Of a stretch of DNA of 64,000 bases, positions 5,999-58,651 are shown piece by piece; positions within the stretch are counted from its first letter, which is position 1; the number at the start of each line of letters is the position of its first letter. The notes beneath the pieces were generated by a model. That model was not told the DNA's origin and did not search any database. It saw only the letters and a program-made list of their open reading frames with translations. The DNA is taken from NCBI RefSeq assembly GCF_025465255.1, contig NZ_JAODNI010000112.1:62001-126000 (forward strand), given 5' to 3'. Both the position numbers and the translations under genes were made by a program. This stretch comes from Pseudonocardia sp. (GTDB taxonomy: Bacteria; Actinomycetota; Actinomycetes; Mycobacteriales; Pseudonocardiaceae).

Positions 5999-6287
5999 TA
6001 TTCGACCCTGCCTGCTCCCCCGGGGCGCGCACGTCGGCCCCGCAGGACGAACTCCGCGGACGAGGTGCTCCCCCGGGGGTTCACCTGCCTCGCCGTGTCG
6101 ACTCCCGTCGCCGACGTTCACCCTGCCGTGCCGACGACACGACGACACCCGCCCACCGACGATCGGGTGGTCCGGCCGGGATCGTGACACCGGCGGAGCG
6201 GGACCGGTCGGTGCACCGGCGACCGACGATGCACGGTCGGCCGGCGCTGGTCCGCGTGCCGGGCCATCCGACGAGCTGAGGAGACCC
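5999..6287. promoter_or_regulatory. Divergent intergenic region between glycosyltransferase and membrane-protein operons
   Basis: The region separates the minus-strand GT4 gene from the plus-strand gene at 6288, so it should hold two promoters. It contains a near-repeat, GCTCCCCCGGGG, at about 6015 and again at about 6068, each followed by a G/C-rich segment. I cannot identify -35 or -10 boxes with confidence. A GAGCTGAGGAGACCC segment provides the ribosome binding site for the gene at 6288. Confidence 0.4.
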
Positions 6288-7930: not shown

Positions 7931-7957
7931 CGGACGGGAGCGGTGGGGGCAGGCCGG

Positions 7958-8626: not shown

Positions 8627-8654
8627 GGGAGGCCGTCGGGGCCGGGGCCGCGGG

Positions 8655-10772: not shown

Positions 10773-10968
10773 CCACCGGTCCGTCCGTGCACGGCACGGC
10801 GTCGCGGCGAGCGGGCGCATCCGCCGGGGCACCCGTCGCTCTCGGAGGCCGGTCTCGTGGGCTGCTTTCGCCCCGTCGGGACGAGGCGGGCGGACCGTGC
10901 GTTCAGCAGCATGGCGAGCACCGGGCCACCCGGGCCCGAGTCGACCGATCCCCCGGAGGACGAACCAG

Positions 10969-39367: not shown

Positions 39368-39512
39368 CTCGTGCGCTCGTTCCCTTCCCGGTCCGCTCGT
39401 TGCCGCTAGATTGCTCCCAGGCTCCGCACGGAGGGACCAGCCGGCCCTCCGCGGCGGGGATCCGTGGTGCCGGCGTCGGGTGTTGCCGGGAGCTGGAGAA
39501 GGTGGCGGTTCG

Positions 39513-41960
39513 GTGGACGAGCGTGCACCGTTGTGGGCTGCGTTGCTGGATCACGCACGGGTCGGGGCGTTCGCCCTCGACGCGCGGGGCCGGGTCGTCG
39601 TCTGGACCGCCGAGGCGGAGCGGCTGACCGCGCGGACCAGCTCCGAGGTCCTCGGGGCGGACGGCGTCGTCGTGGGGATCGCGCCGCCGGACGAGGCTGC
39701 CGGGTGGGAGACGACGGCCGACGCGCAGGCGGGAGCGACCTGGTCCGGCACGCTCCCGAGCACCTCGGAGCACGACCGGCCGGTGTGGTACCGGTGCCAC
39801 CCGGTCCACGCGGACGGCCGGTTCCTCGGGGTCGTCGGGATCCTGTCCGACGAGTCCGGGAGCCCGGACTCGTCGGACGAGACCCTCGCCCTGCTCGACG
39901 GGCTGTTCGAGAACGCGCCGGTCGGCTTCACCTACGTCGACACCGATCTCCGGTACCGGCGGGTCAACGCCACGGTCGCCTCGATCAACGGGGGGACGGT
40001 GGAGGAACGGATCGGCCGGACGATCGACGAGGTCCACGGCGAGCCCTGCGGCCCGCGGTTCTCCGCGGTGTGCCGGGAGGTCATCCGCACGGGCGAGGCC
40101 CAGCGGGTCCGCATCGAGGGCCGGCTCTGGCACGGCCGGGGGCCGCACCAGGTCTGGCGGATGAACTACTACCCCGTCTTCGGCGCCGGAGGCGAGGTCG
40201 TCGGGGTGGGCGACGTCTTCGTCGACGTGACCGAGGCCGAGACGACCGGACGAGAGCTGACCGAGCTCGCCGCGGCCCGGCTGCGGACCGTGACCCGCTA
40301 CCGGAGCCTCATCGAGGCGACGAGCGCCGAGGTCTGGACCGTCACCGCCGACGGCGACCCGGTGCCGGACCCAGACGCCTCGGCGGCGGACCGGGCGCCC
40401 TTCCTGACAAGGGTCCATCCCCACGATCGGGAGGACGCGGAACGACGCTGGCGCGAGGCGCTCAACACCGGCTCGGTCTTCGACGAGGTCGCCCGGCTCG
40501 CCGCCGAAGGGGGCGGGCACCGCCACTTCAGGATCCGCGCGGTGCCGGTGGTCGTGGCGGGCCGCACCGTCGAGTGGGTCGGCACCGAGACCGACATCGA
40601 CGCCGAGGTCCGGGCCCGCACCCGCCTGGAGCTGCTCGCCCGGGCGACCGAGGCCGTCAACCGCGAGCTCGAACCGCTCAGCGAGCTGCAGGCGCTCGTC
40701 GACGTCCTCGTCCCCACCTTCGCCGACGGCTGCACCGTCCATCTCCTCGACCCGCTGGTGGCGGGCGGCCCCGTCACGGGACGGCGGTTGACCAGCCGGG
40801 TCGACATCGAGGTCCCCGACGCCTCCGCCGAGCCGTTCACCTACGCCGACGACCATCCCTTCGCCGAGCTCGTGCGCACGCGTCGCCCCCTCCTGCTGCA
40901 CCATCCCCTGGACGACCGTGCCCGTTGGGCGCGCGACACCGCCCTCGCCGACTGGGAGCGCAGGCTCGGCTGGCACACCTCGCTCCTGACCCCCATCCGC
41001 TCCGGCGACGCCGTCATCGCCGCCCTGACCTTCGTCGCCTGGGGCGACCGGCCGCGCTTCACCGACGAGGACCTGACGTTCGTCAGCGAGCTCGCCGCGC
41101 GAGCCTCCGTGGCCATCGAGCACGCGCAGCGGTTCCAGGAGACGCGGCGCGCCGCGCTCACCCTGCAGAAGGCGATGCTCAGCGAGCTCCCCCCGCGCCG
41201 CGACGTCGAGATCCAGGCCCGGTACCAACCCGCGCTCGACACCCTCGAGGTCGGTGGGGACTGGTACGACGCCTTCACCCTCCCCGGCGGCGACCTCGGT
41301 CTCGTCGTCGGGGACGTCGTGGGCCACGACCTGGACGCCGCCACCGTGATGGGACAGCTGCGCAGCATGTTCCGCGGCATCGCCATGGACGACTCCATGG
41401 AGCCGGCGAGGGCCGTCGAACGCCTCGACGAGCTCGCGGTCGCGCTCGGGATCACGGACTTCGCGAGCCTGCTCTACGCCCGGCTCCGACCACGTCCGGA
41501 CGGCGGCGCCACCCTCACCTGGAGCAGCGCGGGCCATCCGGCCCCGCTGCTGGTCCACCCCGCGCACGGCCCCCGGTCCCTCCTCGAAGGAGCGGGAATG
41601 GTGCTCGGCGTGACCACGCGCGGCCCCTCCCGGTCCCAGGGCCGCGCGACAATCGAACCGGGCTCGACCCTGCTGCTCTACACCGACGGCCTCGTGGAAC
41701 AGCGCCGCAGGGACCTCGACGAGACGACGTCCCGGCTCGAGGCCGTCGCCTCGGAACTCCTCGACACGCCGCTGGCGACGTTCTGCGACGAGCTCCTCGC
41801 CCGCAGCGAGTCCGACACCAGCGACGACATCGCCCTCCTCGCCGTGCGGCTACCCGACGCCCTCCCGGCCGCCCCCCCGGTGCGGCCGGGACGGAGCGGG
41901 CAGACACAGCACCGGCCTCCCGAGGTCGTCGGGAGCGGAGCCGTCAGATCTCGGTCTTGA
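39513..41960 (+). CDS. PAS/GAF-domain SpoIIE-type PP2C phosphatase
   Basis: 815 residues from GTG 39513, with GGAGAAGG upstream. Domains in order: PAS (about 5-120, ARVGAFALDARGRVVVWTAE), PAS (about 135-250, APVGFTYVDTDLRYRRVNAT), a PAC/PAS-like segment (265-370, RFRIRAVPVVVAGR-like HFRIRAVPVVVAGRTVEWVG), GAF (about 380-545, ADWERRLGWHTSLLTPIRSG) and the SpoIIE/RsbU phosphatase (570-785, LEVGGDWYDAFTLPGGDLGL, VVGDVVGHDLDAATVMGQLR, YTDGLVEQRRRDLDE, SDTSDDIALLAVRL). Such enzymes dephosphorylate STAS antagonists in response to signals. It overlaps the convergent gene by 17 bases. Confidence 0.94.
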   Translation: MDERAPLWAALLDHARVGAFALDARGRVVVWTAEAERLTARTSSEVLGADGVVVGIAPPDEAAGWETTADAQAGATWSGTLPSTSEHDRPVWYRCHPVHADGRFLGVVGILSDESGSPDSSDETLALLDGLFENAPVGFTYVDTDLRYRRVNATVASINGGTVEERIGRTIDEVHGEPCGPRFSAVCREVIRTGEAQRVRIEGRLWHGRGPHQVWRMNYYPVFGAGGEVVGVGDVFVDVTEAETTGRELTELAAARLRTVTRYRSLIEATSAEVWTVTADGDPVPDPDASAADRAPFLTRVHPHDREDAERRWREALNTGSVFDEVARLAAEGGGHRHFRIRAVPVVVAGRTVEWVGTETDIDAEVRARTRLELLARATEAVNRELEPLSELQALVDVLVPTFADGCTVHLLDPLVAGGPVTGRRLTSRVDIEVPDASAEPFTYADDHPFAELVRTRRPLLLHHPLDDRARWARDTALADWERRLGWHTSLLTPIRSGDAVIAALTFVAWGDRPRFTDEDLTFVSELAARASVAIEHAQRFQETRRAALTLQKAMLSELPPRRDVEIQARYQPALDTLEVGGDWYDAFTLPGGDLGLVVGDVVGHDLDAATVMGQLRSMFRGIAMDDSMEPARAVERLDELAVALGITDFASLLYARLRPRPDGGATLTWSSAGHPAPLLVHPAHGPRSLLEGAGMVLGVTTRGPSRSQGRATIEPGSTLLLYTDGLVEQRRRDLDETTSRLEAVASELLDTPLATFCDELLARSESDTSDDIALLAVRLPDALPAAPPVRPGRSGQTQHRPPEVVGSGAVRSRS

Positions 41961-42426: not shown

Positions 42427-43140
42427 TCAGTCCCGCGCGAGGTGCGCGATGATGTCGCGCTCGACGTCCCGGATGTGCTTCACCGCGGCCGCGCGAGCGT
42501 CGTCGACCCGGTGCCCGCCGACTGCGTCGACGATCTGGCGGTGCCCGGCGTGGGCGGCTTCCCGGCGGCCCCGCAGCCCGACGACCTGGTGCGAGTAGTC
42601 GACGAACAAGGGCTCGATCGTCGAGTGGAGCTTGAGCAGCAGCGAGTTCTTCGTCGTCTGCGCGATCGCGCGGTGCAGGTCGGCGTCGAGCGCGACGAAG
42701 TCCTTGTCGCTGAGGTCGGGACTCGCCATCGCCTCGATGATGCCGCGCAACTCGGCGGTCTCGTCCTCGGTCGCGCGTTCCGCGGCCAACCCGGCGGCGT
42801 CCCGCTCGAGGGTGATCCGGACCTCGAACAGCTCCTGCACCGTGTACTCGTCGAGTACGAGCAGCTGCGACAGGTCGGGCGCGCGGCGTGACCGGCTGAC
42901 GACGAAGACACCGACGCCGTGGTCGGTCCGGAGCATCCCGTTCGCCTCGACGACGCGGATCGCCTCGCGCATCGAGCTGCGCCCGACCCCGAACTGCTCG
43001 GCCAGTGCCCGCTCCGGCGGCAGCTTGTCCCCGGGCGCGAAGTCTCCTCGGACGATCATCGACTCGAGCTGCTCGGCGACGGAGTCCGCCACCTTCAGCC
43101 TGCGGACGGGCTCGATCCTGCCGCGGCTCGTGCTGGACAT
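42427..43140 (-). CDS. FadR-subfamily GntR transcriptional regulator
   Basis: 237 residues. The N-terminal winged helix-turn-helix (MIVRGDFAPGDKLPPERALA with EQFGVGRSSMREAIRVVEAN and GMLRTDHGVGVFV) and the all-helical FCD ligand domain (VQELFEVRITLERDAAGLAA, FVALDADLHRAIAQTTKNSL) define the FadR subfamily, which typically binds TNGTNNNACNA operators and responds to sugar acids or other organic acids. It is the last gene of the operon, 12 bases after kdgK, consistent with autoregulation. A matching operator lies upstream of the first gene at 53.1 kb. Confidence 0.94.
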   Translation of the reverse strand: MSSTSRGRIEPVRRLKVADSVAEQLESMIVRGDFAPGDKLPPERALAEQFGVGRSSMREAIRVVEANGMLRTDHGVGVFVVSRSRRAPDLSQLLVLDEYTVQELFEVRITLERDAAGLAAERATEDETAELRGIIEAMASPDLSDKDFVALDADLHRAIAQTTKNSLLLKLHSTIEPLFVDYSHQVVGLRGRREAAHAGHRQIVDAVGGHRVDDARAAAVKHIRDVERDIIAHLARD

Positions 43141-43152
43141 CCGGCCCCCCTC

Positions 43153-44238
43153 TTACCCTTGACCCGGCAGGTCGGTGGTCGCGTCCCCCAGGACCACGAG
43201 GTCGCCAGTGGTCCGGTGGTCTGAAGAGTAGTGGCCGTGGTCACCGTCCGCCACCGCGCAACGCCGCGAGCCGGCGAACCGGTCGTGGTCCACGGCGGCC
43301 GGAGGTCCGGCCACGCCGCGTCGCGGGAGGATGTCCTCGGGCAGGATCGCCCCGGGAGTGCCCACGACCAGGGACGCGAGCCGATGGCCGGCCGCCGCCG
43401 CCTGCGCCGGTCGTTCACCGCGCAGCCGCGCGGCCAGGTACCCCGCGTTGAAGGAGTCCCCCGCCGCAGTCGTGTCGACGACCGGGACGTCGCGCCGCGC
43501 CGGCACGGGGACGACGTCGCCGCCGGTCACGACGAGACATCCCTCCGGCCCCGTCTTGACCACCGCCTCGGCGACGCCGAGCCCGGCCAGGCGGGCCGCG
43601 CACGCCTGCGCGTCCCGGTCCCCGTACAGCGCCCGCTCGTCGTCGAACGTGGGCAGGTAGACGTCGGTCAGCTCCAGCGTGCGGGTGACGGCCGCCCGCG
43701 CGGCCGCCGCGTCGGGCCAGCCGCGCGGGCGGAAGTTGCTGTCGAACGCGACCCGCGCGCCCCGGGCCCGGGCGGCCGCCAGGACCGACCACAGCCGCTC
43801 GCGGGCCGGTGCGGAGAGGATCTGCAACGTTATCGCCGACAGGTAGACCAGATCGCTGTCCGCGACCGCCCGGTCGACCCGCTCCGGCCAGCTCGCGTCG
43901 AACAGGCACCGGGCCGGGGACTCGGACCGGTGGTAGGTGAAGCTGCGCTCCCCCGCCCCGTCCGTCCGGACCAGGTACAGCCCCGGCGTGCGCCCGGGCA
44001 TCCGCTCCACCAGGCCGGTGCCGATGCCCTCCGCGGCCGCGGCGGCGACGAGCTCGTCGCTGTACCGGTCGTCGCCCACCGCGGACACGTAGTCGACGGA
44101 CACCTCGTCCGCCGGGGCGCTGCGGGCCAGGTAGACCGCGGTGTTGAAGGTGTCCCCGGCGAACCCGAGGGCGAGCGTGCGGTCCGTCCGGTGGGTGAGC
44201 TCGACCATGCACTCGCCGATCGCGGTCACCCGGGTCAC
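43153..44238 (-). CDS. kdgK: 2-keto-3-deoxygluconate kinase (PfkB family)
   Basis: 361 residues from GTG 44238 (overlapping the eda stop as GTGA). PfkB features: VTAIGECMVELTHRTDRTLA, GFAGDTFNTAVYLARSAPAD, PGLYLVRTDGAGERSFTYHR, VYLPTFDDERALYGD and the nucleotide site VVDTTAAGDSFNAGYLAARL with the catalytic Asp. This fold and the neighbouring eda gene indicate KDG phosphorylation to KDPG. The C-terminal 55 residues after DILPRRGVAGPP are unusual and may be disordered. An inserted pair of GGTCC/GGTGGTC repeats in its end lies just upstream of the GntR gene and could serve as an internal operator. Confidence 0.93.
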   Translation of the reverse strand: MTRVTAIGECMVELTHRTDRTLALGFAGDTFNTAVYLARSAPADEVSVDYVSAVGDDRYSDELVAAAAAEGIGTGLVERMPGRTPGLYLVRTDGAGERSFTYHRSESPARCLFDASWPERVDRAVADSDLVYLSAITLQILSAPARERLWSVLAAARARGARVAFDSNFRPRGWPDAAAARAAVTRTLELTDVYLPTFDDERALYGDRDAQACAARLAGLGVAEAVVKTGPEGCLVVTGGDVVPVPARRDVPVVDTTAAGDSFNAGYLAARLRGERPAQAAAAGHRLASLVVGTPGAILPEDILPRRGVAGPPAAVDHDRFAGSRRCAVADGDHGHYSSDHRTTGDLVVLGDATTDLPGQG

Positions 44239-44855
44239 GGCCGCGCCCCGATCAGGTCGCGCAGCTCCGCCACCTTCGCCTCGAGGTCGTCCGCGGCGTA
44301 CACGTCGCTGCCCACCCCCACCGCGAACGCACCCGCGTCGAGCCAGGCCGGGACGTCGCGCACCGCGATCCCCCCGGTCGGGACGATCCGGGCCCCGGGC
44401 AGGACCGAGAGCACGGACTTCAGGTACTGCGGCCCGCCCAGGTGTGCCGGGAACATCTTGGCCACCCCGCGGTCCGCGGCGGCCCCGATCTCGGCGGGGG
44501 TGATGCCACCCTCGACGAACAGCACGTCCCCCTCGGCGGCGACCGCCCGCGCGGCCGGAACCGGGTACGGGCTGACCAGGAAGTCCGCGCCGTACACCAC
44601 CGCACACTGCGCGTCGGCCGCCGTCCGGACCGTACCCAGCCCGACCACCGCGTCCGGCGCCTCGGCCTTCACCGCCGCGACGAGATCCGGCCAACCCGGG
44701 ATCGTCGCGGTGAGCTCGAGGACGTCGAGACCCGCCGCGACCAGCCGCAGCGCGATGACGCGACCGGCGTCGGCGTCGGGCGCGCGCAGCACCGGGACGA
44801 TCCGGGCGCTGCGGATCCGCTCGGCGGTGCGCTCCTGAGCCGCGGACAGGGTCAT
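44235..44855 (-). CDS. eda: KDPG (2-dehydro-3-deoxyphosphogluconate) aldolase
   Basis: 206 residues from ATG 44855 (AAGGAGGAC upstream). Class I aldolase motifs: RIVPVLRAPDADAGRVIALR, VLELTATIPGWPDLVAAVKA, AVVGLGTVRTAADAQ, ADFLVSPYPVPAARA, and GVAKMFPAHLGGPQYLKSVL with the Schiff-base Lys; PTGGI closes the phosphate site. It splits KDPG into pyruvate and glyceraldehyde 3-phosphate, the last step of the Entner-Doudoroff route. It sits between the lactonase gene and kdgK, overlapping kdgK by four bases. Confidence 0.95.
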   Translation of the reverse strand: MTLSAAQERTAERIRSARIVPVLRAPDADAGRVIALRLVAAGLDVLELTATIPGWPDLVAAVKAEAPDAVVGLGTVRTAADAQCAVVYGADFLVSPYPVPAARAVAAEGDVLFVEGGITPAEIGAAADRGVAKMFPAHLGGPQYLKSVLSVLPGARIVPTGGIAVRDVPAWLDAGAFAVGVGSDVYAADDLEAKVAELRDLIGARP

Positions 44856-44869
44856 TGCTGGGTCCTCCT

Positions 44870-45760
44870 TCAGAACGCCCGGACGCCGGAAACCCGGGTC
44901 CGGAACCGGTGCAGCGTGGTACTGGCGCAGATGTAGAGCGAGCACAGGTCGTCGTCGCCCCAGGTGAAGTTGGCGGTCACCTCGGGAACCCGGATGACGC
45001 CGAGCGCGACGCCCGCGGGGTCGAAGACGTGGATGCCGCCCGGCCCGCAGCTGAACAGGTTTCCGGCGCTGTCGACCTTCAGGCCGTCGGGTTCGCCGGG
45101 ACCGGCGCCCGTGGTGCGGGCCCAGACCTCGCCGCCGGTGACACCGCTCCCGGTGAGCGCGAACCGGCGGATGTGCATCCGTTCGGTGTCGGCCACGAAG
45201 AGGTGCCGCTCGTCGAGGGACAGGCACAGCCCGTTGGGGCCCTCGACGTCGTCGGTCAGCAGCTCGAGGCCGCGGGCGCCGAGCCGGTAGACCCCGCAGA
45301 AGGGCAGCTCCCGCGACCGCGGCACGCCGTAGGGGGCGGCGCGACCGTAGCCGGGATCGGTGAAGTAGATCGTCCCGTCCCGGGCCACGACCACGTCGTT
45401 GGGGCTGTTCAGCTCCTTGCCCTGGTAACGGTCCGCGAGGGTGACCACCGAGCCGTCGGCCTCCTGCCGGACCAGCCTGCTCGTCGCGTGCTCGCAGGTC
45501 AGCAGGCGGCCCTGCCGGTCGTAGGCGTTCCCGTTCGCCATGTGGCTGGGATCCCGGAAGACCGACAGCTCACCGGCGGCGGACAGCCTCGACATCCGCG
45601 CGGCGGGGATGTCGCTGAACACGAGCGACCGCTCCCGCGGATGCCACACCGGGCCCTCGAGGAACCGGAACCCCGTGGCCACGCGGCGCAGCGGCTCGTC
45701 GGCCACCACGTCGTGCAGCCGGGGGTCCCGGACCTCGAGAGCGGACACGGCAGGGATCAC
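44870..45760 (-). CDS. SMP-30/gluconolactonase family protein
   Basis: 296 residues from GTG 45760, overlapping the stop of the dehydratase (GTGA). The six-bladed propeller's metal-binding residues are suggested by GFRFLEGPVWHPRERSLVFS, ELNSPNDVVVARDGTIYFTD, DDVEGPNGLCLSLDERHLFV and PGEPDGLKVDSAGNLFSCGP. It would hydrolyse a sugar lactone produced by the GMC flavoproteins. Cys-rich, unusual C-terminal LYICASTTLHRFRTRVSG has no added motif. The linked genes make an aldonolactonase role likely. Confidence 0.92.
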   Translation of the reverse strand: MIPAVSALEVRDPRLHDVVADEPLRRVATGFRFLEGPVWHPRERSLVFSDIPAARMSRLSAAGELSVFRDPSHMANGNAYDRQGRLLTCEHATSRLVRQEADGSVVTLADRYQGKELNSPNDVVVARDGTIYFTDPGYGRAAPYGVPRSRELPFCGVYRLGARGLELLTDDVEGPNGLCLSLDERHLFVADTERMHIRRFALTGSGVTGGEVWARTTGAGPGEPDGLKVDSAGNLFSCGPGGIHVFDPAGVALGVIRVPEVTANFTWGDDDLCSLYICASTTLHRFRTRVSGVRAF

Positions 45761-46929
45761 CGCGCGCCGAAGGCCGGCGGTGTGGCGCCGGGCGGGCGGG
45801 CGGAGCCCCGCGAGAGGGCGAACCGCTCGTCGGCGTCCGGGGCGAGCTCGACGCCCAGCCCGGGCGCGTCCTGCGCGGCCAGGTACCCGTCCTTCACCAC
45901 CAGCGGGTCGACCAGCATCCCGTCCCAGCCCGGCCCGCCGTAGGCGTCGACCTCGATCAGCGGGGTGTTCTCGCAGGCCAGGATCATGTGCAGGCCTGCG
46001 GCCAGCGCGATCCCGGTGCCCGAGGAGCAGGCGATGTGCGGGATGCAGCTGAGGTTCCAGGTGCTGGCCATGTCGGCCACCCGCTTCGCCTCGGAGATCC
46101 CGCCGACGCTGGTGGCGTCGGGCTGCAGGATGTCGAAGGTCCGCCGGGTGAGCAGGTCGATGAACTCGAACCGGGTCAGGAGGGACTCCCCGCCCGACAG
46201 CTTGAGCGAGACCCGGTCCGCCAGCCACGTGTGGTCGTCGGCGTACTGGGTCAGGCTGCGCGCGAGGATCGGCTCCTCGAGCCAGGCCACGTTCAGGCCC
46301 TCGAGCTCGCGGGCGAGCTGCAGGGCCCCGCGCCGGTCGTAGGACATGTTGGCGTCCACCCCGAGGTCGACGCCGGGGCCGACGGCGTCGCGCACCGAGC
46401 CGACCAGGTGCACGGCGTCGCCGATGTCCCCGAGGACCCGCAGCTTCATCGCGGTGTAGCCGTCGGCCACCGCCCGCCGGGCCTCGTCGACGATCTGGTC
46501 GACCGGCTTGAGCGAGGGCGCGAAGTACGCCCGCACCTTCGACTTGGAGGAGCCCAGCAGCCGGTGGACCGGCTGGCCGGCGATCTTGCCCAGCAGGTCC
46601 CACAGCGCGATGTCGATGCCGCTGAGGGCATAGGTCTCGATCCCGCGGCGGCCCCACATGTGGGTCGCGTCGAGCATCTGCTGCCAGAGGGCGCCGATGT
46701 CACGGGGGTCCTTGCCGACGAGCATCGGGGCGAGCTGCTGGTTGATGATCGGCCCGACGGTCGGGAAGTACTCCGAGGAGAACCCGGCCTCGCCGATCCC
46801 GACCAGGCCTTCGTCGGTGGTGACCCGGACGACGATGCCGCCCTTCGACGTGACCACCATGGCGCCCCACCGCAGCGGCTCGTCGAGCGGTGACCCGAGT
46901 GGCGTCGCCTCGACGCTGGTGATCCGCAT
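45757..46929 (-). CDS. Enolase-superfamily (mandelate racemase/MLE) sugar-acid dehydratase
   Basis: 390 residues. The capping domain (TSVEATPLGSPLDEPLRWGA) is followed by the TIM barrel with catalytic Lys motif YTAMKLRVLGDIGDA, metal ligands DLGVDANMSYDRRGALQLAR (Asp), LNVAWLEEPILARSL (Glu) and the later SLKLSGGESLLTRF, with DATSVGGISEAKRVADMA and IPHIACSSGTGIALAAG (catalytic His). These residues fit an acid-sugar dehydratase producing a 2-keto-3-deoxy sugar acid; gluconate or galactonate are possible substrates. Its stop overlaps the lactonase start, and its ATG shares a base with the preceding gene's stop (TGATG). Confidence 0.92.
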   Translation of the reverse strand: MRITSVEATPLGSPLDEPLRWGAMVVTSKGGIVVRVTTDEGLVGIGEAGFSSEYFPTVGPIINQQLAPMLVGKDPRDIGALWQQMLDATHMWGRRGIETYALSGIDIALWDLLGKIAGQPVHRLLGSSKSKVRAYFAPSLKPVDQIVDEARRAVADGYTAMKLRVLGDIGDAVHLVGSVRDAVGPGVDLGVDANMSYDRRGALQLARELEGLNVAWLEEPILARSLTQYADDHTWLADRVSLKLSGGESLLTRFEFIDLLTRRTFDILQPDATSVGGISEAKRVADMASTWNLSCIPHIACSSGTGIALAAGLHMILACENTPLIEVDAYGGPGWDGMLVDPLVVKDGYLAAQDAPGLGVELAPDADERFALSRGSARPPGATPPAFGAR

Positions 46930-47627
46930 CAGCCGGCCTTCCCGAGGTGCGGGACGAGCTCGTTCCAGTCGTACTCACCGACGAAGTACTCGGTGGTGCT
47001 GTAGGTGCCGTCCATGGTGTCCTTCAGCGACTTCGGGCCGGGGAAGCCGATGACCTTCCAGCCGATCCGGTCCTTGTTCCCGCCGTAGACGGGGTCGCAG
47101 TAGAAGCCCTGCCGGGTGTGCAGGCACAGCGCCTCGAAGAACGGCAGGCCCTGGTCGAACGTGCCCTGCAGGAACGTCCCGACCGCGAGGCTCGAGCCGA
47201 GGGTGACGGGGCCCGGCTTCGGCGCACCGGAGAAGGCCTCGAGCGCCAGGTCCTGCTCAGCCTCCGTGAGCTCGATGAAGGCCTTGGCGAACTGTTCCCG
47301 GGCCGCGGCGTCGAGGGCCGCGATGCCCTCCCGGTAGGTCTGTTGCATGTCGTACATGCGCGAGCGCCAGGCGTCGGCGAACTTGCCGGTCAGCTTGAGG
47401 AACCCGCTGCCGTCCGCGGCGGCGAAGATGTAGTCGATGCCGGACAGGTAGCGGTCGATGAACACGACCACGCGGGCCTCGCGGGCGCCCGGGTCGTGGT
47501 CGGTGGGGATGATGCGGGCGGTGGCCGCCTCGATCGTGTCCCACTCGTGGTCGGTGAAGAACAGGCGCTCGTCGGAGTCGGGATCGATCGGGGAACCGAC
47601 GATCTCCCAGTCGGCCTTCAGGGTCAT
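46929..47627 (-). CDS. Gluconate 2-dehydrogenase subunit 3-like protein (pair with GMC-1)
   Basis: 232 residues from ATG 47627 (AAAGGAGGAC upstream). LFFTDHEWDTIEAATARIIP and VVVFIDRYLSGIDYIF are the defining start of the subunit-3 family. Further conserved elements are LGKFADAWRSRMYDMQQTYR-like (here LTGKFADAWRSRMYDMQQTY), FEALCLHTRQGFYCDPVYGG and DRIGWKVIGFPGPK. In membrane gluconate and glucoside 3-dehydrogenases this small subunit partners the FAD subunit and is exported by Tat; here no Tat signal precedes it. The gene follows the GMC-1 gene by 28 bases, so the two likely form a cytosolic complex. Confidence 0.93.
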   Translation of the reverse strand: MTLKADWEIVGSPIDPDSDERLFFTDHEWDTIEAATARIIPTDHDPGAREARVVVFIDRYLSGIDYIFAAADGSGFLKLTGKFADAWRSRMYDMQQTYREGIAALDAAAREQFAKAFIELTEAEQDLALEAFSGAPKPGPVTLGSSLAVGTFLQGTFDQGLPFFEALCLHTRQGFYCDPVYGGNKDRIGWKVIGFPGPKSLKDTMDGTYSTTEYFVGEYDWNELVPHLGKAG

Positions 47628-47655
47628 GACGTCCTCCTTTCCTCGGGGTTGGGGT

Positions 47656-49323
47656 TCAGGCGACCTTGATGTGCTCATCACGGCCCTTGGACCAGGCGTC
47701 CGCGATGTAGTCCGACACCCGCCAGGCGTTGGCCATCATGGTCAGCGTCGGGTTGACACCGGTCGAGGTCGGGAAGCAGGACCCGTCGACGACGAAGAGG
47801 TTGTCGACGTCGTGGGACTGGCACCACTCGTTGAGCACCGTGTTCGACGGATCGGTGCCCATCCGGGCCGTCCCGTGCTGGTGGCAGGTGTTGCCGGTCA
47901 TCCGGTCCAGGTAGACCGGGACGGTCTTGCGCGCGCCGGCGACCTGCAGGATCTCCGCGTTCTTGTCGACCTGCCACTTGCTCATGGCCACGTCGTTGCC
48001 GTGCGGCTTGTGCGTGATCCGGGCGACCGGGAGGCCCCAGGCGTCCTTCACCGTCGGGTCGAGGTCGACGCGGTTCCCCTCGACCGGCATGTCGTGCAGG
48101 ATCGCGCCGATCTTCATCGCGAAGTTGAAGTAGCTGCGGTCGGCGTCCTTGAGCGACTGGCCCCACTGCGGCCGGCCGGGGAAGACCCAGTTGATCGGGT
48201 GGCACGTCTGAGAGGCCGAGATCAGGCAGCCGCCGATGTGCCCGCGGTTCTCGTCGGTCTCGTAGAACTCGAAGGTGCCGCCGCTGATGTAGTTGCCGGC
48301 CCAGCCGTGCAGCGGGTCGTCGATCTCCTGGTCGAACAGGCCGACCGCGAAGACGTACTCGTGGAAGGTCGCGTTCTTGCCGACCATGCCGCTGGAGTTG
48401 CCCAGGCCCTCGGGGAACTGCGGGGACCTCGACATCAGCATCAGCCGCGCGGACTCGATCGCGCCGAGCCCGAGGACGACGACCTTCGCCTCCTGGGCGA
48501 CCTCGTTGCCGTCCGGGTCGATGTAGACGACGCCGGTGGCCTTGCCGTCCTTGCCGACCGTGATCTCCCGGACGAAGGACTCCGAGCGCAGCTCGAAGTT
48601 GCCGGTGGCGACGGCCTCGGGGATGAACGTGGTCAGCGTGTTCGACCGCGCCGTGCTCGGGTCGCCGTACTGGTTCCAGAAGCTGGTGGTGTTGAACGGG
48701 TCGCGGCCCTTGTGGTTGTTCGTCACCATCGCGTGCGGGATGGGGAAGCCGTTGATCCCCATCTTGTTGCAGGCCTCGTAGAAGCGCTTGCCGAACTTCG
48801 TCGGGCCCAGCGGCTCGCTCGGGTAGGCCTTGCTGCGGAAGGGCTCGTACTTGTCGGCGCCGGCGATGCCGGAGATGCCGAACTCCCACTCCACCTTGGT
48901 CAGGTAGGGCTCGAGGTGCTCGTAGCGGATCGGCCAGTCGGCCAGGCTCGCGCCCTCGATGTCACCGTGCAGGCTGCGGACCATGAAGTCCGACTCGCGC
49001 GGCCGGGGCACCCAGCCGGCCCAGTGGTTCGTGCCGCCACCGACCAGCTGCGGGGTCGGCGAGAACGGGAAGCGCTCGGCCTCGGAGGTCTCGTCGTGGC
49101 GCAGTGTGCGGGGGAACAGGTTCGGGTCCGGCCACAGGTAGTTGCGGTTGACGTACTTGAGCTCGTCGCCGGAGTAGTGGTCCTGGGCCGACAGCCACGG
49201 GCCGCGGTCGAAGCCGACGACCTTGAGGCCGGCTTCGCTGAGCACCTTGGCCGCGGTGGCCCCGGTGGCCCCGAGTCCGACGACGATCGCATCGACCTGC
49301 TCGGGCTTCTTGACGTGACGCAC
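47656..49323 (-). CDS. GMC-family FAD-dependent oxidoreductase 1
   Basis: 555 residues from GTG 49323 (GAGAGGAGAG upstream). FAD-binding AIVVGLGATGATAAKVLSEA, LVGGGTNHWAGWVPRPRESD (second FAD signature), VVVLGLGAIESARLMLMSRS, and the C-terminal GMC domain with GNTCHQHGTARMGTDPSNTV and NLFVVDGSCFPTSTGVNPTL (active-site His and Asn region). It resembles the large subunit of gluconate 2-dehydrogenase and glucoside 3-dehydrogenases. It would oxidise a sugar or sugar acid. The small subunit lies immediately downstream. It has no Tat signal or cytochrome partner. Confidence 0.94.
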   Translation of the reverse strand: MRHVKKPEQVDAIVVGLGATGATAAKVLSEAGLKVVGFDRGPWLSAQDHYSGDELKYVNRNYLWPDPNLFPRTLRHDETSEAERFPFSPTPQLVGGGTNHWAGWVPRPRESDFMVRSLHGDIEGASLADWPIRYEHLEPYLTKVEWEFGISGIAGADKYEPFRSKAYPSEPLGPTKFGKRFYEACNKMGINGFPIPHAMVTNNHKGRDPFNTTSFWNQYGDPSTARSNTLTTFIPEAVATGNFELRSESFVREITVGKDGKATGVVYIDPDGNEVAQEAKVVVLGLGAIESARLMLMSRSPQFPEGLGNSSGMVGKNATFHEYVFAVGLFDQEIDDPLHGWAGNYISGGTFEFYETDENRGHIGGCLISASQTCHPINWVFPGRPQWGQSLKDADRSYFNFAMKIGAILHDMPVEGNRVDLDPTVKDAWGLPVARITHKPHGNDVAMSKWQVDKNAEILQVAGARKTVPVYLDRMTGNTCHQHGTARMGTDPSNTVLNEWCQSHDVDNLFVVDGSCFPTSTGVNPTLTMMANAWRVSDYIADAWSKGRDEHIKVA

Positions 49324-49376
49324 GTGCTCTCCTCTCCGCGCCCGCAGCAGTGCCGGCGCGTGATGGCGTGCCCCGG

Positions 49377-49398
49377 CCCGAGGGAGAGCGCCCTCGGG
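49377..49398 (-). terminator. Internal hairpin between the two GMC gene pairs
   Basis: CCCGAGGG, a six-base AGAGCG loop and CCCTCGGG form a perfect eight-pair stem in the 107-base gap between GMC-2 and GMC-1, the largest internal gap of the operon. It may weaken read-through or stabilise the upstream message, giving differing levels of the two pairs. No T-run is present. Confidence 0.5.
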
Positions 49399-49430
49399 CG
49401 GGGTGACGGGGTGGGGGTCGGACGCGCGCG

Positions 49431-51092
49431 CTACAGCGCGGGCGCTTCCGCGTTGCTCGGGGTCGTCGTCTGCGACGCGATGTCCCGGTGGCGGCGCTTG
49501 ATGTACTCGGCGGCCCGGACCGCGACGGCCTGCAGCGTGCTGGTCGGGTTCACCGCGGCGCCCGTGGTGAGCGAGCTGGCGTCGGTGATGAACAGGTTGG
49601 GCAGGTCCCAGGTCTGGTTCCACTTGTTGGTGACCGAGTCCTCGGGCGTGTTGCCCATCCGGCAGGTGCCCATGATGTGCCAGCCGGGCGGCGGCGCGTC
49701 GATGCCGCCGATGCCCGTCGTGGTGGTGTCGATGACGCCGCCGGCCGCGTCCGCGGCCTCGCGGGCCCGCTGCTGCCCCCACTCGACGAGCCGGCGGTCG
49801 TTCTCGTGCAGCTCGTAGTGGACGTGCGGCGCGGGGAGCCCGCTGGAGTCCTTCACCTCGGGGTCGAGGGTGACCCGGTTGGTGCGGACCGGCAGGTCCT
49901 CGCCCTGGACGTAGACCAGCGCGTGCCGGCCGAAGTGGTCGTCGAAGAACCTGCGGTGCCCGGCGCCCCAGGGGGCCGTGTTGCCGGTGTTCGTCCCGAG
50001 CGCGCTGGTGGCGGCACCCAGCGAGGTGCCGACCTGCAGCGAGAAGCCGTTGACGAAGCCGCGCGACGGGTCGCTGTCGTAGAACTCCTGACTGTAGAGC
50101 ACGGCGGGCTCCGGGCCCTTGAAGCCCTCGAGCGGCTCGTCGAACCAGAAGTCGACGAAGGACCAGCTGTGGTACATCAGGTGCGTGCCGACGAGGCCGT
50201 TGGAGTTGGCCAGCCCGTCCGGGTGGCCGTTCTGGGCGGACATCAGCAGCAGCCGGGGCGTGCCGATCGAGTTCGCGGCGACCACCACGATCCCGGCCCG
50301 CACCTCGTGGTGCTGCCCGGTGACCCGGTCGATGTAGGTGGCGCCGGTGGCGCGGCCGCCCTTCGCGTTGATCTGCTCGACGCGCGCGTTCACCCGCAGG
50401 TCGACCCCGTTGCGCAGGGCCGCCGGCCAGTAGGACACGTCCGTCGAGGCGATCGAGTGCCGGGGGCAGCCGGCGAGGCAGAAACCGCAGTCGTTGCACG
50501 CCAGGCGGGCGTCCTTGGCGCGGGTGAGGATCGCGTTGTCCGCGGGCCACCAGTGCCAGCCGAGCTTGTCGAAGCCCGAGCCCATCTTGTGGCCGACCTT
50601 GCCGCCTCGGCTGGCCGGGCCCCAGCCCTCGGGGCGCGCCGGGTTGCCGGGGTCACCGGTCCGGCGCGCGACGCCGATCTCGGCGTCGTTGATCGCGTAG
50701 AACGGCTCGAGCTCCTCGTAGGAGATCGGCCAGTCGATCGTGCCCTCGACGCCGTGCTCGGTGCCCTTGCGGAAGTCGACGGGCTTGAACCGGGGCCACG
50801 CCGCCGCGTAGTGCAGCGTGGAGCCGCCCACCCCGGTGAAGGTGTACGGCGTGGTGTTGCCGGTGACCGGGTAGTCCTCGGGGAACCGGCGGACGTTGGG
50901 CTCGAACGACCAGCTCCGCTTGCGCTCGAGCTCCCACCCGTCGTACATGTGCGGGTGCTCCATCGCGTGGACCCAGTCGCCCTGCTCGAGGCAGACGACC
51001 TTGATCCCGGCGTCGCTGAGCCGCTTGCTCACCGCTCCGCCGCCCGCGCCGGCCCCGATCACCAGGACGTCGGTCTCGGTGTACGCCGCCAT
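49431..51092 (-). CDS. GMC-family FAD-dependent oxidoreductase 2 with a CxxCxxCxxxC motif
   Basis: 553 residues from ATG 51092. FAD-binding VLVIGAGAGGGAVSKRLSDA, GGSTLHYAAAWPRF, and the C-terminal PPPGWHIMGTCRMGNTPEDS with NLFITDASSLTTGAAVNPTS. The insert LACNDCGFCLAGCPRHS (Cys 199, 202, 205, 209) resembles an iron-sulfur or structural motif found in bacterial FAD glucose dehydrogenases; whether it binds a cluster is untested. The subunit-3-like gene lies just upstream and shares one base with this start (TGATG). No Tat signal is seen. It may oxidise a different sugar than GMC-1. Confidence 0.94.
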   Translation of the reverse strand: MAAYTETDVLVIGAGAGGGAVSKRLSDAGIKVVCLEQGDWVHAMEHPHMYDGWELERKRSWSFEPNVRRFPEDYPVTGNTTPYTFTGVGGSTLHYAAAWPRFKPVDFRKGTEHGVEGTIDWPISYEELEPFYAINDAEIGVARRTGDPGNPARPEGWGPASRGGKVGHKMGSGFDKLGWHWWPADNAILTRAKDARLACNDCGFCLAGCPRHSIASTDVSYWPAALRNGVDLRVNARVEQINAKGGRATGATYIDRVTGQHHEVRAGIVVVAANSIGTPRLLLMSAQNGHPDGLANSNGLVGTHLMYHSWSFVDFWFDEPLEGFKGPEPAVLYSQEFYDSDPSRGFVNGFSLQVGTSLGAATSALGTNTGNTAPWGAGHRRFFDDHFGRHALVYVQGEDLPVRTNRVTLDPEVKDSSGLPAPHVHYELHENDRRLVEWGQQRAREAADAAGGVIDTTTTGIGGIDAPPPGWHIMGTCRMGNTPEDSVTNKWNQTWDLPNLFITDASSLTTGAAVNPTSTLQAVAVRAAEYIKRRHRDIASQTTTPSNAEAPAL

Positions 51093-51697
51093 CAGTTCTC
51101 TCCTGCTTCCCGGGCCTGCCGTGCCGAACACATCGGGAGGTCGGCGGGGATCGCGACCCGCCGCACGTCCTCGGTCCGGATGTAGGTGCCGCGGACGCGG
51201 CTCAGCAGCTCGTCGTCCCAGTCGTCCATGACGTCGGAGTAGCCGTAGGGCTGCGGCGTGTTGCGGTAGTCCCGGCCCGCGGGCAGGCGGTTGATGGCCC
51301 GGATGACCTCGGGCCGGGAGTAGTACGCGTGGTAGACGACGTCCCGCAGGCGCGTGAAGAACTCCGGCTCGTCGCGCTCCAGCCCTTCCAGGACCGTCAC
51401 GCGCCGCGCGGAGGCGGCGTCGGCGAACTCCTGCCCGAGCCCGTCGAGGCGGGCCCGGAAGTCGTCCTCACCGAGGAACGGGAACCACTTGGGCTCCAGC
51501 CCCGACGGCGTCACGTACCGGGCGATGAACGAGATCACGTCGACCTCGCTGGGCGCCGGGAAGCCGCCGCCGCCCGGGATGAGCTCGTCCGCCGCGGCGT
51601 CGAGCACCGCGGTCTGCGCCCCGCTCAGCCGGATTCCCGGTAACCAGCCGCCGATCGGCGGCTTGGCGTCACGGGGTGTCACGCTCAGTTCGGTCAC
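51092..51697 (-). CDS. Gluconate 2-dehydrogenase subunit 3-like protein (pair with GMC-2)
   Basis: 201 residues from GTG 51697 (AAAGGAGAGG upstream; a longer frame begins at 51727). Family elements are LSGAQTAVLDAAADELIPGG, VISFIARYVTPSGLEPK and RLRDVVYHAYYSRPEVIRAI with YGYSDVMDDWDDELLSR. It is shorter than its paralogue at 46.9 kb and shares only family features. No Tat signal. The stop and the GMC-2 start share a base, so a one-to-one complex is very likely. Confidence 0.9.
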   Translation of the reverse strand: MTELSVTPRDAKPPIGGWLPGIRLSGAQTAVLDAAADELIPGGGGFPAPSEVDVISFIARYVTPSGLEPKWFPFLGEDDFRARLDGLGQEFADAASARRVTVLEGLERDEPEFFTRLRDVVYHAYYSRPEVIRAINRLPAGRDYRNTPQPYGYSDVMDDWDDELLSRVRGTYIRTEDVRRVAIPADLPMCSARQAREAGEN

Positions 51698-51736
51698 GAT
51701 CCCTCTCCTTTGTGGGACGTCGTCCACCGGTGTGGA

Positions 51737-52261
51737 TCAGGCGCGCTCGAGGTAGTTGACGATCGCCCGGCCGAAGTCGGGCAGGTCGACCGGCGTGCGG
51801 GAGGTGATGACGTTGCCGTCCTCGACGACCGGCGCGTCGACCCAGGTGCCGCCGGCGTTCTCGACGTCGGTCCTGATCGGCAGGTAGCCGGTGATCTTGC
51901 GGCCCTTGGTGGCGCCGGCGGAGGCGAGCATCCAGCCGCCGTGGCAGATCGCGGCGACGAGCTTGCCGGACTCGTAGGCGTCCTTGACGAGGTCGATCAT
52001 CTCCGGGTGCAGGCGCATGTTGTCGGGCGCGAACCCGCCGGGGATGACGACGGCGTCGAAGTCGGAGGCCGAGACCTCGGAGGCGGCGGCGTCCGCCTCC
52101 ATCGGGTAGTGCTCCTTGCTGTCGTAGCTGCCCTTGGTGCCGCTACCGATCACCTTCACGTCGGCGCCCGCCTCCTGCAGGCGCAGGTAGGGGTACCAGC
52201 CCTCGAGGATCTGGTACTCGTCCTCGATCAGCAGGGCGACCTTCTTGCCGGAAATCGACAT
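51737..52261 (-). CDS. DJ-1/PfpI-family protein
   Basis: 174 residues. The glutamine-amidotransferase-like fold is shown by KVALLIEDEYQILEGWYPYL, FDAVVIPGGFAPDNMRLHPE and LVAAICHGGWMLASAGATKG with the nucleophile Cys (about residue 106) and neighbouring His. DGNVITSRTPVDLPDFGRAI completes it. Family members include proteases, glyoxalases and deglycases; glyoxal detoxification would fit sugar oxidation but is not shown. It is the second gene of the operon, 39 bases before the GMC-2 small subunit. Confidence 0.92.
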   Translation of the reverse strand: MSISGKKVALLIEDEYQILEGWYPYLRLQEAGADVKVIGSGTKGSYDSKEHYPMEADAAASEVSASDFDAVVIPGGFAPDNMRLHPEMIDLVKDAYESGKLVAAICHGGWMLASAGATKGRKITGYLPIRTDVENAGGTWVDAPVVEDGNVITSRTPVDLPDFGRAIVNYLERA

Positions 52262-52316
52262 CTCACGTCCTCGCGTTCGTCGGTTCGTCGGGGCTGTGCG
52301 GGGTGTTCCGGCGCGC

Positions 52317-53018
52317 TCAGGCGTCGATCATCTGGAGGAACTCGATGCTGGTGCGCACGTCGCCGTGGTTGGCCTGGATCTGGCGCAGGGCCTCCCAGTG
52401 CTGCCCGTAGCCCATCGGGTCGTCCTTGCCCGAGGGGATGGCGGCGGTGGTGTCGGCCAGCACGACGATCTTGAAGTCCTGGTTCGCCCCGTCGATCGCG
52501 GTGGCGAGCTGGCAGTTGCCGGTGGACAGGCCCGCGACGACGAGGGTGTCGCAGCCGGCCCGGCGCATGTACTCGGTCAGCGCGGTGCCGTAGAACGAGC
52601 TGAAGCGGTGCTTGCGGATGACCGGCTCGTCGGGCAGGGGATTGAGCTCGTCGACCAGCTCGTCGCCGCCGTTGCCCCAGGACCCGGGGAACGTCGCCAG
52701 CTGGTCGACCAGGCCCCACTTCACATCGGCGAAGCCGGCGTCCTTGCCGTCCGGGCGCAGGCCCCAGAGCGACCACACGACCGGGATGCCCTTGGCGCGG
52801 CAGGCCTCGAGGACGTCGACGACGGGCTGGACGACGTCCTTGCCCTCGGGGGCGCCACCGACGCTGGGGATGTACATCGCGCCGCCGGGCTCCGCACACG
52901 CCTTCTGCATGTCCAGGACCAGCAGCATCGTCTTCTTCGGGTCGATCGTCGGCGCGAGCATGGCCGAGCGGTCGATGTGGTCGTCGATGTGCTTGTACGT
53001 GAAGTCGAGCGAGGACAT
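52317..53018 (-). CDS. Isochorismatase-family hydrolase
   Basis: 233 residues from ATG 53018 (AAAGGAGCAGC upstream). The catalytic triad positions are visible: TMLLVLDMQKACAEPGG (Asp), PVIRKHRFSSFYGTAL (Lys) and VVAGLSTGNCQLATAIDGAN (Cys). The family hydrolyses amides or ureas such as nicotinamide, N-carbamoylsarcosine or biuret. It opens the operon, downstream of the promoter/operator. Its relation to sugar catabolism is unclear: it may release sugar from an N-linked or other conjugate. Confidence 0.92.
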   Translation of the reverse strand: MSSLDFTYKHIDDHIDRSAMLAPTIDPKKTMLLVLDMQKACAEPGGAMYIPSVGGAPEGKDVVQPVVDVLEACRAKGIPVVWSLWGLRPDGKDAGFADVKWGLVDQLATFPGSWGNGGDELVDELNPLPDEPVIRKHRFSSFYGTALTEYMRRAGCDTLVVAGLSTGNCQLATAIDGANQDFKIVVLADTTAAIPSGKDDPMGYGQHWEALRQIQANHGDVRTSIEFLQMIDA

Positions 53019-53132
53019 CGCTGCTCCTTTGCGTTGATGCGAGTGATCGAAACGACGGGGTACGTTCACCTGGTCACGGCGCTCGTCCCGAAGGTCTCCG
53101 ACCGCCCGAGCCGGTAGAGCTCAGGTGATCAG

Positions 53133-53145
53133 GTGGTCTGACCAC
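53133..53145 (-). promoter_or_regulatory. Probable GntR/FadR operator
   Basis: GTGGTCAGACCAC (minus strand) is an almost perfect palindrome with a one-base centre and contains TGGTCAGACCA, which matches the FadR-subfamily consensus TNGTNNNACNA. It begins at the base after the -10 box and lies about 115 bases upstream of the isochorismatase start. A FadR-type regulator is encoded at the operon's end. Binding here would block transcription initiation. Confidence 0.75.
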
Positions 53146-53174
53146 TTTAACCCGGCGGTCGCCGGCCCTGTCAA
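53145..53174 (-). promoter_or_regulatory. Promoter of the sugar-catabolism operon
   Basis: On the minus strand, TTGACA (53174-53169) is followed by an 18-base spacer and TTAAAG (53150-53145). The -35 box is perfect and the -10 is a moderate match. The palindromic operator follows directly. The divergent fur gene starts 156 bases away on the other strand and needs its own promoter in the same region. Confidence 0.65.
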
Positions 53175-53329
53175 GAGTCTGTTCCGGGGGCTCTGGGCGG
53201 CTGTGGCACAGAAGCGCCGACATGGATCGGCCCTGCGTTGCTGGCGCTCGTGGCTAGCTTCCGAGCCCCACATGGTTCCGTTCCTCTACCGCAGGTTTGG
53301 GACGACCCTGGTGCGGGGACGCCCGACGC

Positions 53330-53785
53330 ATGGCGATAGGCCACGTGCCGGCGCAGATCGACGTGACGGCGCAGTTGAGGACCGCGGGCCTGCGGGTGAC
53401 CGCGCCGCGGAAGGCCGTGCTGACCTGGCTCGCCGGGCATCCGCATGCGACGGCGGACGAGGTTCGGGCCGGCGTCGCCGCCGAGCTCGGGTCGGTGTCG
53501 CACCAGACCGTCTACGACGTGCTCCGGGCCGGCTGCGACGCGGGCCTGGTCCGCGTCATCGAGCCCGCCGGCCTGCCGGCGCTGTTCGAGCGGCGCACCG
53601 GGGACAACCACCATCACGTCGTGTGCCGCGGATGCGGCAGGACCCAGGACGTCGACTGCGTGCAGGGTCGCGCACCGTGCCTGTCCCCCGACGACGACCA
53701 GGGGTTCACCGTCGACGAGGCGGAGATCCTCTTCTGGGGCCTCTGCCCGATCTGCAGGAGTAACCACCACGAGGAGCGGCGATGA
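53330..53785 (+). CDS. Fur-family metalloregulator
   Basis: 151 residues from ATG 53330. The winged helix domain contains [20 protein letters not shown] and [20 protein letters not shown]. The metal-binding half has [20 protein letters not shown] and the second Cys pair in [13 protein letters not shown]. It overlaps the catalase gene by four bases (ATGA at 53782-53785), as FurA does with katG in mycobacteria. It probably represses katA in response to iron or peroxide, with a binding site in its own upstream region. Confidence 0.93.
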
Positions 53786-58532: not shown

Positions 58533-58651
58533 TGTCGCTGAGCCGGGCCAGTAGCCGAACGACGATCGACCGACCGATTGCACCCGATCTGCAAGCGGAC
58601 CAGGTCACGGTATCGGAGTCCGGCACAGCGCCGGCGACCAGAGGAGTAATC

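Follow-up and report, generated by a model that had tools for sequence, protein, structure and literature searches.

A Pseudonocardia operon with two unlike GMC/subunit-3 dehydrogenases, an isochorismatase-like hydrolase and a candidate acid-sugar drain

A 64,000-nucleotide stretch of a Pseudonocardia sp. genome (contig NZ_JAODNI010000112.1; hereafter the window) carries an operon of eleven minus-strand genes, from position 53018 to 42427, with two FAD-dependent GMC oxidoreductases and the enzyme families of a sugar-acid pathway. The gene order is ISOCH, DJ1, SUB3A, GMC1, GMC2, SUB3B, DEHYD, SMP30, ALDO, KDGK and GntR, with intergenic gaps, in that order, of 55, 39, -1, 107, 28, -1, -4, 14, -4 and 12 bases; gene starts were picked among candidate codons with their upstream sequence. 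The gene set and its order are retained in related loci of other genomes, which argues that the arrangement is beyond chance. In a scan of genome contigs, 60 loci were found (L038 to L097); in 45 of these (L038 to L082) the GMC2 is at least about 65% identical. Genes in these loci were called with a home-made composition score, and absences judged by it are soft.

Families were assigned with Pfam and NCBIfam for ten operon proteins and with Pfam for the regulator. The first gene encodes ISOCH (52317..53018), an isochorismatase-like cysteine hydrolase of 233 residues (PF00857, 5.1e-31) whose nearest NCBIfam model, RutB, matches at 7e-20, under its cut-off. DJ1 (51737..52261; 174 residues) belongs to the DJ-1/PfpI family (PF01965, 5.4e-51) and scores 167 bits against TIGR01382, exceeding the cut-off of 139. 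SUB3A (51092..51697; 201 residues, GTG start) is a small subunit of the gluconate 2-dehydrogenase subunit 3 family (PF13618, 3.7e-07), and its stop codon overlaps by one base the start of GMC1 (49431..51092; 553 residues), an FAD GMC oxidoreductase (PF05199, 8.1e-23) with the motif CX2CX2CX3CP. The second GMC oxidoreductase, GMC2 (47656..49323; 555 residues, GTG start; PF05199, 3.0e-25), lacks these iron-sulphur ligands and is followed by a second small subunit of the same family, SUB3B (46929..47627; 232 residues; PF13618, 2.4e-33). Next come DEHYD (45757..46929; 390 residues), an acid-sugar dehydratase of the enolase superfamily (MR/MLE; PF13378, 1e-59 and PF02746, 1.9e-21), and SMP30 (44870..45760; 296 residues, GTG start), an SMP-30/gluconolactonase-like lactonase (PF08450, 5.2e-45). 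ALDO (44235..44855; 206 residues) is an aldolase of the type acting on 2-keto-3-deoxy-6-phosphogluconate (KDPG) or KHG (PF01081, 1.9e-29; eda subfamily, 119.7 bits against a cut-off of 156). KDGK (43153..44238; 361 residues, GTG start) is a PfkB-family 2-keto-3-deoxygluconate (KDG) kinase (PF00294, 3.6e-52; KdgK model, 329.5 bits against a cut-off of 400). The last gene (42427..43140; 237 residues) encodes a GntR/FCD-family regulator (PF00392, 4.6e-20; PF07729, 1.2e-25). KDGK has a C-terminal tail (43153-43290, minus strand) that extends beyond the end of the L038 homologue (361 residues against 315); the L039 homologue has a tail too, a dissimilar one. A sequence-only reading of this DNA had named two GMC enzymes, each with a subunit-3-like partner, a lactonase, a dehydratase, a KDG kinase and an aldolase. 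All of these lie in the interval it described and match Pfam above the curated cut-off. Its gene list is correct at the level of families; left out of it were ISOCH, DJ1 and the GntR/FCD regulator, which lie in the same interval.

The two GMC enzymes share 31.9% identity and, judged by their sequences, are not recent duplicates; the difference between them had been missed by the sequence-only reading. For the FAD-glucose dehydrogenase of B. cepacia (BcGDH), PMC6719666 describes a 3Fe-4S cluster, bound by Cys212, Cys218 and Cys222, that relays FAD electrons to a cytochrome subunit; it also describes the small subunit as a hitchhiker on the twin-arginine translocation (Tat) pathway. Counts of conserved residues and GMC loops below, and the Tat scan, include the window copies. 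Of 13 GMC1 rows, 12 have CX2CX2CX3CP at the BcGDH ligand positions; in the 13th the four cysteines are present and the motif ends in CT (a 415-residue fragment from L063 is counted among the 13). GMC1 thus appears to retain the ligand cysteines, and the cluster itself is predicted. None of the 45 readable GMC2 rows has ligand cysteines, and all 45 have FWN[QT][YF]GDP in their place (FWNQYGDP in the window); a 46th row is too fragmentary to include the loop, and in L079 the gene caller gave GMC2 only in part. By an alignment to BcGDH made by eye, GMC2 retains the FAD-region His as well as the catalytic His and Asn.

Loss of the cluster ligands is not unique to GMC2: clades with the loops QDGFNFQGDK and AFAQQHGDP also lack the cysteines, as does L018, which is 60% identical to GMC1. 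A regular-expression search over 59 GMC open reading frames (ORFs) classed 20 as having no motif, and at least three of these (L029, L034 and the second GMC of L099) have cysteines at another spacing. Loop variants beyond the 45 loci include FWNG (L108, L109), FWNL (L099) and FWQQYPDP (L100).

Both enzymes resemble sugar dehydrogenases; alignment with non-sugar alcohol oxidases, named by the sequence-only reading as a result that would refute it, was not what the comparisons showed. The best solved relative of GMC1 is the fructose dehydrogenase large subunit (2.9e-50), and that of GMC2 is BcGDH (4.8e-33). The first nine structural matches of a GMC2 model were fructose dehydrogenase and FAD-glucose dehydrogenase (Z 35.0, for fructose dehydrogenase, to 28.9), with C-glycoside oxidase just behind (Z 28.0); flavin oxidases of the pyranose-oxidase kind showed fold similarity only (Z about 26-28). 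Mean confidence of the model (pLDDT) was 71.1, and residues 211-227, the loop that replaces the cysteines, fell below 50.

A pair of unlike GMC enzymes recurs elsewhere. L108 and L109 have a cluster-less GMC2 and, about 11 and 7 kb from it, respectively, a second, unlike GMC that bears the cysteines; in L099 only a small-subunit gene and a short ORF stand between a cluster-less and a cysteine-bearing GMC. Two cysteine-bearing GMCs with small partners lie near an enolase-superfamily gene in L111 and L113. Pairing is thus a repeated finding and no local duplication. L111 additionally holds an IlvD/Edd dehydratase and a relative of a nickel-pincer isomerase, and L111 and L113 represent another unexplored sugar-acid cluster.

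No Tat motif was found in the first 45 residues of GMC1, GMC2, SUB3A or SUB3B, and no cytochrome among the eleven operon proteins by Pfam; both absences had been claimed from the sequence and held up. Over the first 50 residues in related loci, the pattern RRx[FLIVM] matched none of 44 SUB3B rows, one of 12 SUB3A rows (the window ORF, called there from an earlier start) and one of 59 GMC rows (L062_9). Among the 753 ORFs called in the 45 loci, none had two or more CXXCH motifs. Because there is neither a Tat motif nor a cytochrome, both FAD dehydrogenases are probably cytosolic, in line with the earlier proposal of two cytosolic FAD complexes. In a profile comparison the two small subunits came out far apart (probability 49.6%). 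The model of SUB3A had a mean pLDDT of 60.8 and no Foldseek match at E 0.001, and profiles of SUB3A and SUB3B did not find the solved BcGDH-type hitchhiker chain at E 1. The GMC2-type clade keeps a subunit-3 partner with neither iron-sulphur ligands nor an export signal, which raises the question of what role subunit 3 has beyond export.

Domains of electron transfer flavoprotein (ETF and ETF_alpha) were not found in the window's own genome assembly, which is 92.5% complete; each was found in 10 of 14 control genomes. A GMC relative on an Agrobacterium plasmid (L104, 34.7% identical to GMC2) lies in a row (5971-11752) with a 145-residue protein, two ETF genes and a 4Fe-4S/CCG protein, a hint that some GMC relatives use ETF as their electron path.

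ISOCH has the residue pattern of a cysteine hydrolase: Asp36 and Cys169 are present in 42 of 42 rows and Lys136 in 38, with Arg in the other four. True isochorismatase chemistry (vinyl-ether hydrolysis) was set aside for ISOCH, as the Cys is invariant; to our knowledge, true isochorismatases do not have it. The best solved relative is an unnamed cysteine hydrolase (3irv, 2.1e-22), and RutB follows at 1.2e-15. ISOCH resembles RutB and biuret hydrolase in its Asp/Lys/Cys pattern, and RutB is its best NCBIfam match, but at 71.6 bits it is far below the equivalog cut-off of 378 and probably represents a separate subfamily.

An unrelated hydrolase appears to take the place of ISOCH in some loci. 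A CN_hydrolase protein (PF00795, 1e-24), non-homologous to ISOCH, is present in L057, L099, L100, L108 and L109, all of which lack ISOCH; the other four copies are 63-68% identical to that of L057. Glu, Lys and Cys are conserved in all five at what we take to be the positions of the nitrilase triad. To the 45 loci we added L099 and L100 (plasmids), L108, L109 and L110, with GMC2s 62-68% identical to that of the window; these five came from GMC2 searches and were not randomly drawn. Among the resulting 50 loci, 41 have ISOCH (40 plus L110), five have CN_hydrolase, none has both and four have neither. In three of the four the sequence is cut short: L058 and L065 start only a little upstream of GMC2, and the contig of L076 breaks off within the gene. 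L062, with visible flanks, is a true exception. Replacement of ISOCH by an unrelated amidase-like enzyme suggests that a C-N bond needs hydrolysis. This apparent swap beside GMC2 is a concrete clue to the substrate class, and the near-constant presence of an amide-cutting type of enzyme in relatives from three phyla hints that the operon feeds on an undescribed nitrogen-bearing sugar. Among candidate substrates (apiose, hamamelose, other branched sugars, nucleosides, N-acetylglucosamine and glycosylamines), none is singled out by the present evidence.

The operon combines an acid-sugar dehydratase, a KDG kinase and a KDPG-type aldolase at family level. The nearest NCBIfam models of DEHYD are arabinonate, galactonate and talarate/galactarate dehydratase, all under cut-off. 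D192, E218, E219, E248 and D271 are conserved in 28 of 28 DEHYD rows and H298 in 27. In DJ1, Glu13, Cys106 and His107 are present in 30 of 30 rows. The window enzyme is closest among solved structures to 3sjn (6.6e-62). Dehydratases of the related loci form two groups that are 27-36% identical to each other (16 of the 28 rows compared): the non-actinobacterial type is used by the proteobacterial and Bacillus loci and by L055. The dehydratase of L081 (Pseudorhodobacter) is of a subfamily different from the window's and is similar to 5olc, named galactonate dehydratase (1.2e-99), and to 4ggb (8.9e-94), which we take to be 3,6-anhydro-D-galactonate and galactarolactone cycloisomerases, respectively. 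Several different PfkB kinases occur across the loci, and lactonase candidates include SMP-30 and metallo-beta-lactamase-fold genes. Because dehydratase and kinase subfamilies differ between phyla and lactonase candidates vary, what seems to be conserved is the pathway and not a fixed block of genes. Replacement of the dehydratase subfamily looks like stronger support for a pathway than the co-occurrence counts.

Gene calls over the 45 loci gave ISOCH in 40, SUB3B in 43, DJ1 in 28, DEHYD in 27 and GMC1 in 12. DEHYD was present in 26 of 28 loci with DJ1 against one of 17 without; the exceptions were L049, on a short contig, and L056, which lack DEHYD, and L065, which has DEHYD and no DJ1. GMC1 accompanied SMP30 in 10 of 10 loci against two of the 35 others, and DEHYD was found in 18 of 20 loci with any lactonase candidate against nine of 25 without one. 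These counts are inflated by kinship of the loci. Among the locus records, L114 is the L044 locus (100%) and L010 is probably L049; SUB3B of L082 was missed by the gene caller and seen by tblastn. Most ORFs seen in a single locus, like neighbour clusters F31 and F34-F36, stand outside the annotation.

The 45 loci span Actinomycetota, Pseudomonadota and Bacillota. In the order, eight of 298 genomes match GMC2 at E 1e-120 or better, six of them with the FWN loop; in a sample of the phylum, three of 396 genomes match, and the FWN loop is present only in the window's own genome, which is counted in both sets. This patchy distribution suggests that the operon group spread horizontally.

A transporter is lacking from the operon, as the sequence-only reading had noted, but contig C103 of the same genome carries a relative of the transporter that adjoins the operon in many relatives. 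An ABC sugar transporter is adjacent in 30 of 45 loci (gene calls: ATPase 30, permease 30, binding protein 26), and DhaK was called in 10 and DhaL in nine. On C103, DhaL and DhaK are divergent from genes for an ATPase, two permeases and a binding protein; this is the layout beside several relatives, and the best matches are 48-67% identical. The C103 binding protein (L122; E 1e-60) is found in four of 298 genomes of the order, and three of these are among the eight with a GMC2 match at 1e-120 (Fisher p 5e-5, kinship uncorrected). Counting against a link to C103, the binding protein was found at E 1e-40 in only two of 12 genomes (11 with GMC1, plus L056), and four of the operons have a major facilitator superfamily (MFS) gene nearby. 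Transporters thus vary among the loci.

These observations lead us, with moderate confidence, to read the operon as a system for cytosolic oxidation of a sugar to an aldonate that is drained through a semi-phosphorylative KDPG route, with GMC2 acting on a substrate, or forming a product, that contains an amide-like bond. We infer the cytosolic site, oxidation at C1, the amide-like bond, the order of steps and the carbon number from gene content, family membership, the motif loss and its conservation, and co-occurrence. An imported sugar would be oxidised in the cytosol by two non-redundant FAD enzymes, with the operon under its own GntR/FCD regulator. GMC1/SUB3A would most likely oxidise C1 to a lactone, since GMC1 keeps the iron-sulphur ligands and the company of SMP-30, and SMP30 would open the lactone. 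The substrate or product of GMC2/SUB3B would most likely carry the amide-like bond, because GMC2 is found with the C-N hydrolase ISOCH and, where the dehydratase is present, DJ1; ISOCH would cut this bond, and DJ1 would join where there is a dehydratase. DEHYD would convert the aldonate to a 2-keto-3-deoxy-aldonate, KDGK would phosphorylate it, and ALDO would cleave the product to pyruvate and glyceraldehyde 3-phosphate.

Several results weigh against this reading. KDGK, ALDO and DEHYD all score below NCBIfam equivalog cut-offs, so that the oxidative semi-phosphorylative route proposed from the sequence stands at family level only, and nine loci have a dehydratase but no recognised lactonase. 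The nearest solved relatives of the GMC2 model share only 22-24% identity with it. Isochorismatase-like and CN hydrolases act on varied substrates, and 'amide-like' is a statement about enzyme class; moreover, GMC relatives with 51-58% identity and another loop (L098, L112, L115, L116) have neither hydrolase. The other loop was seen directly for L098 and, for the rest, through L014 and L102-L103. On the GMC2 tree the DJ1 state changes five times, three of them forced by well supported branches, and in three supported independent pairs DEHYD follows DJ1 in 2.2 on average and runs opposite in 0.1; a sign test was not significant. A clade of 11 DJ1-less loci has ISOCH in 11, an HbpS-like gene in 10, a mutarotase in nine, an aldo/keto reductase and a Gfo/Idh oxidoreductase in eight each, an AP_endonuc_2-type xylose isomerase in seven and an FGGY xylulokinase in four, and no dehydratase by gene call. 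GMC2 with ISOCH is therefore not bound to the KDPG route, and the gene set of this clade would suit a scheme of oxidation and reduction at a different carbon as well. A Mesorhizobium relative with 51% identity adjoins Gfo/Idh and sugar phosphate isomerase/epimerase genes.

A plain aldose operon, for glucose, galactose or a pentose, is a less likely alternative. Both GMC enzymes would act at C1 of free sugars, differing in acceptor or anomer, and the role of ISOCH and DJ1 would be damage control only, for example against reactive carbonyls. The sugar-dehydrogenase relatives of both GMCs agree with this, as do lactonase candidates in 20 of 45 loci, and a 2025 review on glyoxal stress, in the part considered here, often names DJ-1. 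Incidental damage control is hard to fit to a hydrolase gene kept in 40 of the 45 loci, with an unrelated C-N hydrolase present in some loci that lack it.

Rather doubtful, although compatible with the amide-sugar reading, is the idea that GMC2 is an oxidase that passes electrons to O2, with a neighbouring catalase clearing the peroxide and GMC1 remaining respiratory. The cluster that accepts FAD electrons in BcGDH (PMC6719666) has no ligands in GMC2, and no ETF domain was found in the genome assembly. The divergent neighbours of the operon are a Fur-family regulator (53297-53785, plus strand) and a catalase (53782-55305, plus strand). However, when the window Fur and catalase were used as tblastn queries, neither matched any of the 60 genome-contig loci, and incompleteness of the assembly makes the ETF absence weak.

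A bolder reading that we consider improbable is an undescribed, horizontally spread pathway for N-linked or amide-bearing sugars. GMC2/SUB3B would oxidise beside the C-N bond; DJ1 would be a catabolic enzyme with deglycase or glyoxalase-III chemistry, turning an alpha-keto (hemi)aminal or aldehyde into the aldonate for the dehydratase; ISOCH or the nitrilase-superfamily hydrolase would free the nitrogen; and GMC1 and SMP-30 would take the freed sugar. The chemistry of DJ-1/PfpI proteins is disputed, and if DJ1 is a pathway enzyme, the operon would offer a bacterial growth-based test of it.

In a scheme built on the 3-keto formation suggested from the sequence, at least one of the two GMCs would attack a sugar or glycoside at C3, and an elimination or a reduction would come next, much as with the glycoside 3-dehydrogenase GlycDH, which we take to be a GMC enzyme. 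As described in PMC10628242, the Rhizobium flavin enzyme GlycDH is made together with a TAT-pathway signal protein, and the published operon includes genes for Gfo oxidoreductase and for sugar phosphate isomerase/epimerase of the TIM-barrel type. The window operon resembles this Rhizobium/Agrobacterium system in its flavin sugar dehydrogenase and small partner, and Gfo/Idh (8 of 11) and the xylose isomerase (7 of 11) of the DJ1-less loci fit the scheme, as do the Gfo/Idh and isomerase/epimerase genes next to the Mesorhizobium relative. For this operon we regard it as improbable: compared by gene content, its eleven proteins include, by Pfam, no TIM-barrel eliminase or hydratase and no Gfo/Idh, families that some relatives carry, but instead a lactonase, acid-sugar dehydratase, kinase and aldolase.

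Set against other known systems, the operon resembles BcGDH and the Gluconobacter fructose dehydrogenase in a GMC catalytic fold over nearly the full length and in having a small partner that Pfam places in the subunit-3 family; it differs from these complexes in that no Tat motif or cytochrome gene was found and GMC2 is without ligands. The semi-phosphorylative Entner-Doudoroff and De Ley-Doudoroff routes share its lactonase, acid-sugar dehydratase, KDG kinase and KDPG-type aldolase. It departs from these routes in relying on FAD GMC enzymes where they use an NAD(P) dehydrogenase, and in having ISOCH and DJ1 besides. Among GMC/subunit-3 sugar-oxidation systems it appears to be a variant not described so far: no operon with an isochorismatase, DJ-1/PfpI and a GMC dehydrogenase was found described in the open-licence literature, searched at the level of titles and abstract openings.

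Farther from the operon, the window encodes a collagen triple-helix repeat protein (38438-39316, plus strand; PF01391, 1.4e-32), here in an actinobacterial genome, and a PAS/GAF/SpoIIE-phosphatase sensor protein (39480-41960, plus strand). A large SARP-like regulator with BTAD and AAA/NB-ARC-type domains lies at 55542-58583 on the minus strand.

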